From the NCBI GenBank assembly GCA_030156535.1, contig JASGMJ010000006.1:62001-126000 (forward strand): a DNA stretch of 64,000 bases, written 5' to 3'. Made by a program: the position numbers and the translations under genes. The stretch comes from Candidatus Sumerlaeota bacterium (GTDB lineage: Bacteria; Sumerlaeota; Sumerlaeia; SLMS01; JAHLLQ01). The notes under the pieces are model-generated. The model had not been told where the DNA came from, did no database searches, and saw only the letters and a program-made list of their open reading frames with translations. Below are positions 7,484 through 10,527 of the stretch, piece after piece; position 1 is the first letter of the stretch; every line of letters begins with the position of its first letter.

Positions 7484-8680
7484 GTGGCGCACGCAAATGC
7501 GAGCGTGGTGCAAATCGACGAGAGGCTCTCCCCCACCCCCGTGATACGCTTCTCCAACATCCGCCCCTTTGCCTTCCTGCTCGCGATCATGTTCTTCGCC
7601 GCCGGGCTGTTTCTGGCGGAGTCCTCCCCCACCGCTGCCTTCGCCCAGGACCCGGCCACGCAACTGCTCGGCGCCGCGCCGGGCGGCAACCGGGCCGAGC
7701 CTGCGTCCGGGGCCACCGCCGCCGATGGCAAGACGACGCAAACGGAGACCCTCCTGAGCCCGTTGGAACACACGGCGGAGAGCTATTCAGAGCAATCCGC
7801 CATCGGGAGATTCCTTTACAAGGTGTTCTTCGGTTACGGTTTCACAGTGGACGGACAGACAATCAATCTGTCGAAGATTCTGATCGCGCTGCTGGTGTTC
7901 GTGATCGGGGTCAAGGTCTCGCATCGCGCGCGTCACATCATGCGCCAGCGGCTCAAAGACAGCAGCGACTACATGCGCTTTCTCGAGCGCCTGCTTGGCA
8001 TTTCGATCATCGTGATTTTTGGCCTTCTGGCGATGGACCTCGCGGGCATTCCGCTAAAGGCCTTTGCGTTTCTTGGCGGAGCAATCGCCATCGCCATCGG
8101 CTTTGGAGCCCAGGAGGTGCTCGCCAACTTCATCAGCGGCATCATCCTGACGTTCGAGAAGCCGATTCGCGTGGGCGATCTGATCGAGTTCGACGGCGAA
8201 CGCGGCAAGGTGGCCGACATCGGCCCGCGCTGCACCCGCGTGCGCCAGCCCGGCAACGTGGACCTCTTGATTCCGAACAAGAAGCTGCTCGAAGGCAAAC
8301 TGATCAACTGGACGTTGACCGATGAGCAACTCCGCACCGAGGTTCTCGTCGGCGTTGCCTACGGCTCGCCAACGCGCACCGTCGAGGAGTTGCTGCGCAA
8401 GGCCATGGCCGAGCATCCGCGCATCGACAAGTCACCCAAACCCGTCATCCTCTTCGCGGAATTCGGCGACAACTCGCTGAACTTCCGGGTCCTGTTCTGG
8501 GTCACCGTACGCGACCTCATGGAGCAACTCATCATTCAGAGCGAACTGCGCTTCCGGATCGACGAGCTGTTCCGCGAGGCCGACATCACGATCGCCTTTC
8601 CGCAACGCGACGTACATCTGGACACGCTGGCCCCACTGGAGGTGCGAATGGTTGGGGCGGAAGAAAAGGATAAGAAGTGA
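7484..8680 (+). CDS. Small-conductance mechanosensitive channel, MscS family
   Basis: 398 residues from a GTG start (GGAG about 13 bases upstream). A signal-peptide-like hydrophobic segment (residues 27-50, ending TAAFAQD) suggests an extracytoplasmic N-terminal region, followed by membrane helices near 125-145 and 165-200. The pore-lining segment FGAQEVLANFISGIILTFEK and following PIRVGDLIEF are textbook MscS. The beta domain (VDLLIPNKKLLEGKLINWT) and the C-terminal FPQRDVHL are also present. The channel releases osmolytes on hypo-osmotic shock. The stop codon overlaps the GTG start of the next gene (8677-8680, GTGA), so the two products are made together. An in-frame ATG at residue 36 is a less likely alternative start because it would cut the signal segment. 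Confidence 0.93.
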   Translation: MAHANASVVQIDERLSPTPVIRFSNIRPFAFLLAIMFFAAGLFLAESSPTAAFAQDPATQLLGAAPGGNRAEPASGATAADGKTTQTETLLSPLEHTAESYSEQSAIGRFLYKVFFGYGFTVDGQTINLSKILIALLVFVIGVKVSHRARHIMRQRLKDSSDYMRFLERLLGISIIVIFGLLAMDLAGIPLKAFAFLGGAIAIAIGFGAQEVLANFISGIILTFEKPIRVGDLIEFDGERGKVADIGPRCTRVRQPGNVDLLIPNKKLLEGKLINWTLTDEQLRTEVLVGVAYGSPTRTVEELLRKAMAEHPRIDKSPKPVILFAEFGDNSLNFRVLFWVTVRDLMEQLIIQSELRFRIDELFREADITIAFPQRDVHLDTLAPLEVRMVGAEEKDKK

Positions 8681-10521
8681 CTCAGCCGTCTGCCATTGTC
8701 GAACTCACCCCCAACGTGGCGATGGTGCCCGTGCTGCGCGGCAGCGTGGCCTTCGCGAACGAAGTGCGCCGGGGAATGCTGGAGTGGCGGCCCGAGCGTC
8801 TGGCCGTGGAGTTGCCCGCAGCCCTGGAGGAAGCGCTGCGGCGAATGATCGACGCCCTCCCCCACTTGCAGGTGATGGCGTGGAAACCCAATGACGAGGG
8901 CACCGCGCGCTTCATGGCCGCCGACCCGTGCGACGCGCGGATCGAAGCCTACCGTCTGGGGCGCGAATTTGGCCTGCACGTAAACGCCGTGGACGGCGTG
9001 GAAGCGGCGGCCGAAGAGACGTGGGCGTTCCATCCCGACGAAACCGCCGTGGAGAAGACGGGTGCGGCGGCCTTTGCCCGCGTCTGGATGCAGCACGTTC
9101 CTGCGGCGCCCGCCACGGCGCGGCAGAAACTGATGGCCGGGCGCATTGCACGCCTGGCCGCCACGGGCCAGCGCACGCTCGTCGTCGCCGATGTCGGCCA
9201 CGTGCGCGCGCTGAAGGAGTTGCTGGCCGACAAGAACGCCGCGGACTTCGAAGAGGAAACGCCCGGCGCCGTCCGCCTGACGGTTCGCACGGCGCGCCCT
9301 GAATGGCTGCCGCATCTGCTCGGTGAACTGCCTTACCTGACGTTTCTCTACGAACGCTTTCGCCCGGGCGCCGACGTGGGTACGCCCTTCCCCGTGGCCG
9401 AGGCACTCACCCGGATTCTGGACGAGTCGGCCACGCAGTACCAGGAAGAATACGATGAGGAAGTGAATCTGACGGAGTGGCGGGCGCTGTACCAGTTCGG
9501 GCGAAACCTCTCGCTGGTGCGCGGACGCCTGCGTCCGAGGTTGTACGAAGTCGTCACGACAGCGAAGTCATGCGTGGACGACGACTTCGGCGCGATCGTT
9601 CTGGAGAAAGCCACCGCGTATCCACCCAACACGATCGACGAGGAAAATGAATCGCGTGAAGACGCCAGCAAACTGAGGAGCACGCACCTCTACTTCGACC
9701 TGGGCTGCGGGATGGAACGCGGCGCCCCGGCATACCCGCAGCCCGAGCTCTCGACGCTGGAGTTCCACTTCCGCCGCTCGCGTCCCTCGCAACGTCAAAA
9801 GCGGGCGTGGCAGGAACAGTTCGGCATGGGGCTGGGCATGTGCTCGTGGCCACCCGAGGACGAGAGGATCGAAAAGTTCTTCGCCTTTCTGCGCCGCAAG
9901 GCACTCGCCCAGATTTCCGCCGAGCACACGCTCGTCGAAGAGTTTTCCTCCTCGATGCAGGATGGCCTGGACGTGCGCGAAACGATGCGGAACTGGCATC
10001 GCGGCAAGCTGTACGTGCGGCGCGAACGCACCCCCCCGGGCAAGGTCGGGCCCGTGGTGCTCGTCTGGCGCGATTACCCGCTCGAATGGCCGGACATCTG
10101 GAAGACGACGTTCTATGCCGAGCACCAGAACGAATCCGATATTTCGTTCTACGGCACGCCACTGGGCCAGGAGATGGTTGGTCCCCAGATCGCACGGACC
10201 GAGTACCACGGGATTCTGTCGGTCTTCCCGGCGGCGCACATCCCCGACGTCTGGCAGGTGCCGGTACTCTATCAGTGGGAGACGCACGCGCGGCTGCTGC
10301 TCGCGGCGGCGATTCTGCTGTGCACGGAAAAGTACGTGGCGTGGGTGGCGCCCGTGCCGCCGGACCGCGATCTCGTGGACTTCGCGCGGGCCAACAACGT
10401 GGGCATCATCACGCTGCCGCTGGCGGGATTCAGCAGAAAGACGCTGAAACGCCTGCGGCAGGTGCATGTGCTCGGGACGAAACGTGCCCGCGAATGGGGC
10501 GCGGACTACATCGCCGACTGA
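8677..10521 (+). CDS. Unknown protein with N-terminal TraB/PrgY-like domain, coupled to MscS
   Basis: 614 residues, GTG start overlapping the mscS stop, with AAAGGA upstream. Residues 1-190 have the layout of the TraB/PrgY/TIKI superfamily: a hydrophobic strand and helix (NVAMVPVLRGSVAFANEV), a strand with glutamate (PERLAVELP), and near 150-185 the conserved RQKLMAGRIARLAATGQRT followed by VVADVGHVRAL. This last part matches the family's R..MA..I......GH pattern. The remaining about 420 residues are rich in Arg, Glu and Trp and I do not recognise them; no signal peptide or membrane segment is obvious. The stop lies 6 bases from the convergent recA stop. The coupling to a mechanosensitive channel suggests a cytosolic partner or regulator of osmotic stress, which is inference. 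Confidence 0.75.
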   Translation: MTQPSAIVELTPNVAMVPVLRGSVAFANEVRRGMLEWRPERLAVELPAALEEALRRMIDALPHLQVMAWKPNDEGTARFMAADPCDARIEAYRLGREFGLHVNAVDGVEAAAEETWAFHPDETAVEKTGAAAFARVWMQHVPAAPATARQKLMAGRIARLAATGQRTLVVADVGHVRALKELLADKNAADFEEETPGAVRLTVRTARPEWLPHLLGELPYLTFLYERFRPGADVGTPFPVAEALTRILDESATQYQEEYDEEVNLTEWRALYQFGRNLSLVRGRLRPRLYEVVTTAKSCVDDDFGAIVLEKATAYPPNTIDEENESREDASKLRSTHLYFDLGCGMERGAPAYPQPELSTLEFHFRRSRPSQRQKRAWQEQFGMGLGMCSWPPEDERIEKFFAFLRRKALAQISAEHTLVEEFSSSMQDGLDVRETMRNWHRGKLYVRRERTPPGKVGPVVLVWRDYPLEWPDIWKTTFYAEHQNESDISFYGTPLGQEMVGPQIARTEYHGILSVFPAAHIPDVWQVPVLYQWETHARLLLAAAILLCTEKYVAWVAPVPPDRDLVDFARANNVGIITLPLAGFSRKTLKRLRQVHVLGTKRAREWGADYIAD

Positions 10522-10527
10522 CGGGTC

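Follow-up and report, generated by a model that had tools for sequence, protein, structure and literature searches.

A TIKI-like protein encoded next to mscS in a Sumerlaeota bacterium is a probable partner of a MoxR/CobS-type AAA+ ATPase

A stretch of 64,000 nucleotides from a Candidatus Sumerlaeota bacterium (contig JASGMJ010000006.1, positions 62,001 to 126,000; hereafter the window) carries on its forward strand a gene with a GTG start codon for a protein of 614 amino acids (positions 8677-10521), which immediately follows the gene for a mechanosensitive channel (mscS). The protein belongs to a family without a name. We consider it probable that it is the dedicated partner or adaptor of one particular AAA+ remodeler of the MoxR/CobS type, and that the genes for the two proteins are uncoupled in this genome. 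Three observations suggest that the 614-amino-acid protein works with this ATPase: the two genes are present or absent together in three phyla, their order recurs, and both proteins are conserved. The link between gene and ATPase is itself well supported, while the mechanism that would underlie it is what we infer.

Homologues of the 614-amino-acid protein are present in 15 of the 99 genomes of a set of relatives, the genome of the window included. A pattern scan of 84,980 species genomes, which may miss more distant groups, confirmed 152 relatives; according to the record titles of the best 80 of these 152, homologues occur in Sumerlaeota (Sumerlaeia, BRC1), Planctomycetota, Nitrospinota, Omnitrophota, SAR324, and metagenome-assembled genomes (MAGs) labeled Nitrospirae or Nitrospirales. 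A plasmid of the chlamydial symbiont Neochlamydia sp. S13 also carries a homologue. Gene neighborhoods were compared in 82 loci (the window, L017, and L030-L109), many of which are closely related and thus do not represent 82 independent events. Open reading frames (ORFs) of at least 100 codons were clustered from 81 loci, with as much as 8 kb of flanking sequence if the contig reaches that far, and from the first 20 kb of the window; upstream sequence is short in some loci, so that a few neighbors could be missed.

One recurrent real neighbor emerged from this comparison. Genes of about 320 codons, all falling into a single cluster, lie upstream of the family gene and on the same strand in 49 of the 82 loci, and three members of this cluster match the Pfam families AAA_5 and AAA_3 above cutoff. 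Measured from the ATPase stop codon to where the homology match begins, the distance is at most 60 nucleotides in 32 of these 49 loci and at most 250 nucleotides in 43 of them, with a maximum of 1,818 nucleotides; a small ORF lies between the two genes in L041 and L045. Two other large clusters are made up of shadow ORFs: in the one 171 of 187 ORFs, in the other 21 of 21, overlap the gene or the ATPase by half their length or more. Once these are set aside, the next cluster is found in 17 of the 82 loci. On the Neochlamydia plasmid (L164:4102-6815), the gene for an AAA family ATPase ends five bases before the homologue.

In the genome of the window, the ATPase gene is located on another contig (G000:C22:99416-100303), and its product is 62% identical to the copy in L041. 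Such a separation is not confined to this genome: of the 33 loci without a nearby copy, 30, the window's locus included, come from genomes that have the ATPase in another place. Among the Sumerlaeota loci of this kind, it was present in 12 of 13 genomes, the exception (G031) being 71% complete; among the others it was present in 18 of 20 genomes, although two of these 18 ATPases are fragments (107 and 222 residues) and a single in-frame stop interrupts two.

Counts across genomes lead to the same association. When genomes are sorted into those with both genes, with the gene only, with the ATPase only, and with neither, the 99 relatives divide into 14, 1, 2, and 82, and the 39 of them that belong to the window's class into 13, 1, 2, and 23 (Fisher p 1.7e-7). 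The corresponding numbers are 52, 4, 1, and 20 (p 1.4e-13) for 77 genomes from the phylum of G044, which we take to be Nitrospinota, and 18, 0, 1, and 100 (p 2e-20) for 119 genomes sampled from Planctomycetota, to which G111, the source of locus L092, belongs; without this center genome they are 17, 0, 1, and 100. Relatives that have neither gene, among them G003 and G004 in the window's family and G120, G146, and G148 in Nitrospinota, suggest that the two were lost, or were absent, together. The ATPase gene and the family gene are 8-226 nucleotides apart in ten of the 18 planctomycetes that possess both; in four they lie 0.39, 2.6, 3.0, and 4.5 Mb apart on one contig, and in another four they are found on different contigs. 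The link is therefore independent of neighborhood.

Several points weigh against a partnership of the two proteins. Since the genomes are related, the p values given above overstate independence, and the thresholds for recognizing the ATPase (E 1e-30 or 1e-40) were chosen after the next paralogue in the window's genome had scored 3.4e-9. Discordant genomes make up 3 of 39 in the class, 5 of 77 in Nitrospinota, and 1 of 119 in Planctomycetota; the eight from the class and Nitrospinota counts are 71-85% complete. In Sumerlaeota, L041 is the single locus with the ATPase close by, at a distance of 463 nucleotides, and the link in this group therefore rests on co-occurrence. No recurring vWA gene was seen nearby, in a set of neighbors that were clustered and of which a few were profile-scanned. 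Finally, 11 of 52 aligned members keep all four catalytic-type residues discussed below, so that other members of the family may be enzymes.

The ATPase of the window's genome scores 74.8 bits against AAA_5 (cutoff 22) and 36.2 bits against AAA_3 (cutoff 27), and is hence of the AAA_3/AAA_5 type used by MoxR-vWA systems. A profile of the partner ATPases, built from 45 rows with one ATPase entered twice and with the copies from the window's genome and from Neochlamydia among the rows, gives these two copies 482.6 and 461.9 bits, respectively, and five other ATPases of the window's genome at most 37.5 bits; it did not report YehL of E. coli (at E 10) or RavA. Among the PHROG profiles, phrog_249, annotated as porphyrin biosynthesis, matches the ATPase best (E 6.1e-25), and because of this match and the passed Pfam cutoffs for AAA_3 and AAA_5, MoxR/CobS-type is a fair name. 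Judged by these profile scores, the partner ATPases form one tight group, broadly of the MoxR/CobS type (AAA_5). The porphyrin annotation, together with the heme-binding protein ChaN among the structural matches of the 614-amino-acid protein (Z 7.1), could also be taken to mean that a metal or tetrapyrrole cofactor is what the pair inserts or handles, a proposal compatible with a partnership whose target is left open. We regard this as rather improbable, as both resemblances are to broad superfamilies and, among the neighboring clusters that were identified, none with such genes recurred.

Little probability likewise attaches to the idea that the pair is a conflict or defense system similar to the published MoxR-vWA ternary systems, in which MoxR-type ATPases serve according to an excerpt of PMC7159879. 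The copy on the Neochlamydia plasmid would fit such a role. The distribution in Nitrospinota does not: the gene is present in 26 of 31 good genomes and gives one match each in 53 of 56 carriers, and it thus looks like a core gene. Neither of the two members scanned gave a PADLOC match at E 0.1 or a PHROG match at E 0.01, and the window protein has no such match either; it also has none among 50,697 phage records, and six exact peptide patterns, able to detect just its close relatives, gave none in viral contigs. A phage or defense origin was discarded, as the PADLOC, PHROG, phage-record, and viral-contig searches lend it no support.

The gene directly upstream of the 614-codon gene deserves separate consideration. 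It extends over positions 7484-8680 of the forward strand and encodes an MscS/MscK-type mechanosensitive channel of 398 amino acids (Pfam PF00924 and PF21082 above cutoff; MS_channel_2nd, E 3.7e-20; MS_channel_3rd, E 1.4e-18). A preliminary description of this DNA, made from the sequence, had noted that the mscS stop and the GTG start of the following gene share the bases GTGA and that the latter encodes 614 residues; bases 8677-8680 indeed read GTGA, and the ORF has this length. Stop/start overlaps of four bases are ordinary in bacterial operons, and from the overlap alone the two genes may be co-translated. In a sister species (G001, locus L030), whose homologue is 61-63% identical to the window protein, the mscS stop is separated by nine bases from the ATG of the homologue, in the same frame, and the channel frame is open for 896 codons rather than 398, with the same two MscS domains. 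The mscS neighborhood is common to the genus; the GTGA overlap is not.

Beyond these two loci (2 of 82), mscS was not recognized beside the gene, a pattern that falls short of the conserved neighborhood of a functional operon. ORF clustering gave the window mscS a relative in one other locus, and tblastn with it at E up to 1 matched, among 94 locus entries (13 of them second copies of contigs in L030-L109), solely one sister-species contig that is entered twice. Relatives have other neighbors. In G002, from the same family as the window, the next same-strand gene upstream of the homologue encodes a formyltransferase, and in two loci from another family of the window's order, a gene for the exonuclease VII large subunit lies directly downstream (L032:4387-5613 and L038:8366-9592, with gaps of 0 and 15 bases, respectively). 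The osmotic or peptide-signaling link put forward in the preliminary description, which was to be abandoned if the gene occurred mostly apart from mscS, does not survive these counts: it does occur mostly apart, and the neighbor that recurs is the AAA+ ATPase. A link of the gene to mscS in osmotic functions was thus rejected. That the 614-amino-acid protein and MscS act jointly in osmotic or envelope stress might be suggested by the overlap in the window and the adjacency in the sister species; in view of the two loci out of 82 and the different neighbors in relatives, we find it very improbable. The mscS neighbor is best read as the expression context of this genus, and in this genome the mscS operon probably just expresses the 614-codon gene while the ATPase is encoded elsewhere.

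An AlphaFold2 model of the whole 614-amino-acid protein has a mean pLDDT (predicted local distance difference test) of 91.3. Its residues 1-240 (positions 8677-9396) form a domain that resembles the TIKI/TraB/ChaN/Ere-like fold. Structure comparison aligned this domain with chain 8b6h_DQ of Tetrahymena complex IV (Z 9.5, root-mean-square deviation [rmsd] 4.3, 167 residues), ChaN (2g5g; Z 7.1, rmsd 5.3, 145 residues), HopBA1 (5t09; Z 6.6, rmsd 4.6, 151 residues), and the erythromycin esterase EreC (6xcs; Z 6.3, rmsd 5.3, 156 residues). With PMT (2ebf) and 6a7h, six presumed entries of the superfamily share the fold at Z 9.5 to 5.4 over 131-167 residues, although Z exceeds 8 for Tetrahymena chains only and phosphatases reach 5.9. 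The entry 6a7h, titled 'Bacterial protein toxins', we take to be RRSP from its numbering. Foldseek alone returned no match for the whole-protein model at E < 0.001. An excerpt of PMC6254334 places ChaN, HopBA1, and PMT in the TIKI superfamily, and the legend seen in PMC10060162 names a TraB-family protein among the complex IV subunits, which would correspond to chain 8b6h_DQ.

In profile comparison, columns 19-228 of the family profile aligned with YehM of E. coli, which belongs to DUF5682 (E 7.4e-5, probability 62), and relatives of the window protein gave matches below cutoff to TraB_PrgY_gumN (E 3.4e-4, L018) and DUF5682 (E 1.4e-4, L024); these matches make the TIKI-like assignment credible. 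The window protein itself has no Pfam or NCBIfam match above cutoff and none to TraB_PrgY_gumN (PF01963) at E 1, for which the best of seven relatives reaches 21 bits (gathering cutoff 26.8). For DUF5682 (PF18934), the best of seven relatives reaches 20.8 bits (gathering cutoff 26) and covers the first 82 of 727 positions, and the window's genome contains no match. Membership in either Pfam family was rejected on these scores. The preliminary description of a TraB/PrgY-like N-terminus therefore stands as a predicted fold with remote sequence similarity, seen by profile search in relatives below cutoff, and fails as a profile match of the window protein; the stretch beyond this domain comprises about 374 residues and not the about 420 that it had left unassigned.

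The TIKI superfamily is characterized by a 2His/2Glu active site that is described for RRSP and missing from PMT, as given in an excerpt of PMC6254334. Three of the corresponding positions of the family align with His, Glu, and His of YehM. Column counts in 52 aligned members, the window protein included, show that position 21 is His in 48 members and Arg in the window protein (codon at 8737-8739); position 45 is Glu in 15 members, including the window protein (8809-8811); and position 175 is His in 15 members, again including the window protein (9199-9201), and Asp in 34. Arg149 is our own placement of the superfamily's basic residue. Read at positions 21/45/149/175, the 52 members show the patterns HPRD (24 members), HERH (11), RERH (2; the window and the sister species), and eight others (15). 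At position 19, where we ourselves place the first Glu of the motif, every one of the 52 members has V, I, S, A, or M. The window protein with R21, E45, and H175 thus lacks the conserved His/Glu active site and, as far as its residues tell, is probably not an active hydrolase of the TIKI type.

These data bear on the most serious competitor of a partnership, namely that the 614-amino-acid protein is a TIKI-type hydrolase or protease that is switched on, or fed with substrate, by the AAA+ ATPase. The resemblance to EreC and the 11 members with His21, Glu45, Arg149, and His175 speak for it. Arg21 in the window and the sister species, the HPRD pattern in 24 of 52 members, and the complete lack of Glu at position 19 make it unlikely in our view, as does the fact that conservation peaks in the C-terminal domain and not in the TIKI-like one.

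The TIKI-like domain is followed by a helical region and a variable linker (residues 241-365; positions 9397-9771), with mean pairwise identities of 0.43 for residues 241-320 and 0.26 for residues 321-365. The C-terminal alpha/beta domain (residues 366-614; positions 9772-10518) is the best conserved part: its 249 residues have a mean pairwise identity of 0.51 versus 0.39 for residues 1-240, and 21 of the 29 invariant positions lie in it. Folded alone, it was modeled with a mean pLDDT of 88. The structure prediction that the preliminary description had called for accordingly yielded an alpha/beta domain and no convincing match in the PDB. The domain has no family match, Foldseek gave none at E < 0.001, the best Z value by VIA was 2.9 with none of 999 chains at Z of at least 5, and sequence searches of the PDB with the whole and C-terminal profiles gave nothing better than E 0.24. 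Several of the weak VIA rows belong to RNase H-like or related folds, which at this Z may reflect just a common arrangement, and were not used; a weak or absent structural match does not show the C-terminal fold to be new.

How might the 614-amino-acid protein and its proposed partner work together? The ATPase, probably as a ring, would spend ATP acting on or through the 614-amino-acid protein, with the outcome that some target is remodeled or assembled, as other MoxR-type ATPases do with vWA partners. By analogy to MoxR-vWA pairs, the 614-amino-acid protein likely hands the target to the ATPase or is itself remodeled. Its TIKI-like domain would be a binding or scaffold module, any hydrolase activity having probably been lost in the window protein, and the C-terminal domain may carry the ATPase- or target-binding surface. 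The two proteins would then probably form an uncharacterized two-protein remodeling machine.

The closest known arrangement is yehL-yehM within yehLMPQ of E. coli, where the gene for a MoxR-family AAA+ protein, yehL, likewise lies directly upstream of yehM; the latter encodes a large protein of DUF5682 (E 2.4e-98) whose N-terminus aligns with the family. However, this alignment ends before the family's C-terminal domain, yehP (vWA) and yehQ (SWIM) follow yehM while neither kind of gene was seen recurring in our loci, and YehL shares 22% identity with the partner ATPase over 161 residues (E 0.009). From the TIKI/TraB/ChaN/erythromycin-esterase superfamily, whose fold is predicted for residues 1-240, the window protein differs by the Arg in place of the first His, the lack of a Pfam match above cutoff, and the extra conserved C-terminal domain. 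MoxR-vWA pairs (RavA-ViaA, NorQ-NorD) and the ternary conflict systems also combine a MoxR-type AAA+ ATPase with a dedicated partner (excerpts of PMC7159879, PMC3893208, and PMC9976466), but here the partner is TIKI-like, and no vWA gene was seen recurring beside it.

MoxR-type ATPases are known mainly with vWA proteins, their usual partners, and the pair would be a clear case of another kind of partner. As a tentative proposal, to which we give slightly less than an even chance, a TIKI-like protein with a new C-terminal domain replaces the vWA co-chaperone of a MoxR/CobS-type ATPase in a widespread, undescribed two-gene AAA+ system that ranges over Sumerlaeota, Planctomycetota, Nitrospinota, Omnitrophota, SAR324, a chlamydial plasmid, and the MAGs labeled Nitrospirae. 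No description of the pair was found in the literature searched (DUF5682, MoxR with TraB or vWA, YehL/M/P/Q), most subscription papers and bioRxiv preprints lying outside its scope. The pair also occurs in cultured planctomycetes, such as Singulisphaera acidiphila DSM 18658 (L052), and can be set alongside the little described yehLM of E. coli. A striking local feature such as the GTGA overlap with mscS can mislead, while the lasting partner is encoded on another contig and becomes visible only through counts across genomes.

Some features of the ATPase loci may be recorded as well. The partner ATPases have C-terminal tails (e.g., L097:7038-7985 and L131:9362-10315): a short one, GLGDFFF...PLHPD, recurs in planctomycete and Nitrospinota copies, and the ATPase of the window's genome has an acidic one. 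A tail of this sort might act as a docking peptide, but as the Sumerlaeota form differs from GLGDFFF...PLHPD, we mention it in passing. The ATPase gene of 9 of 14 Sumerlaeota loci, all belonging to the window's order, is followed by a gene of roughly 740 codons, with TPR repeats in the copy from the window's genome, and a further conserved gene comes after in 8 of the 14 (see L131:5859-8956). In one Sumerlaeota MAG, a canonical MoxR ATPase gene (L039:3704-4732; AAA_3, E 1.3e-62; AAA_lid_2) lies directly downstream of the family member, with the dedicated partner ATPase on another contig. CoxE-type matches in the window's genome are on contigs C27, C18, and C58 and none on C22 or C59; on C27 (G000:C27:62772-64279; L114, L166), another AAA+ gene near a CoxE-type vWA gene apparently represents a conventional MoxR-vWA pair. 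In the window itself, a gap of six bases (10522-10527) separates the end of the 614-codon gene from the end of a convergent ORF, which reads as recA, named from its sequence without a profile.

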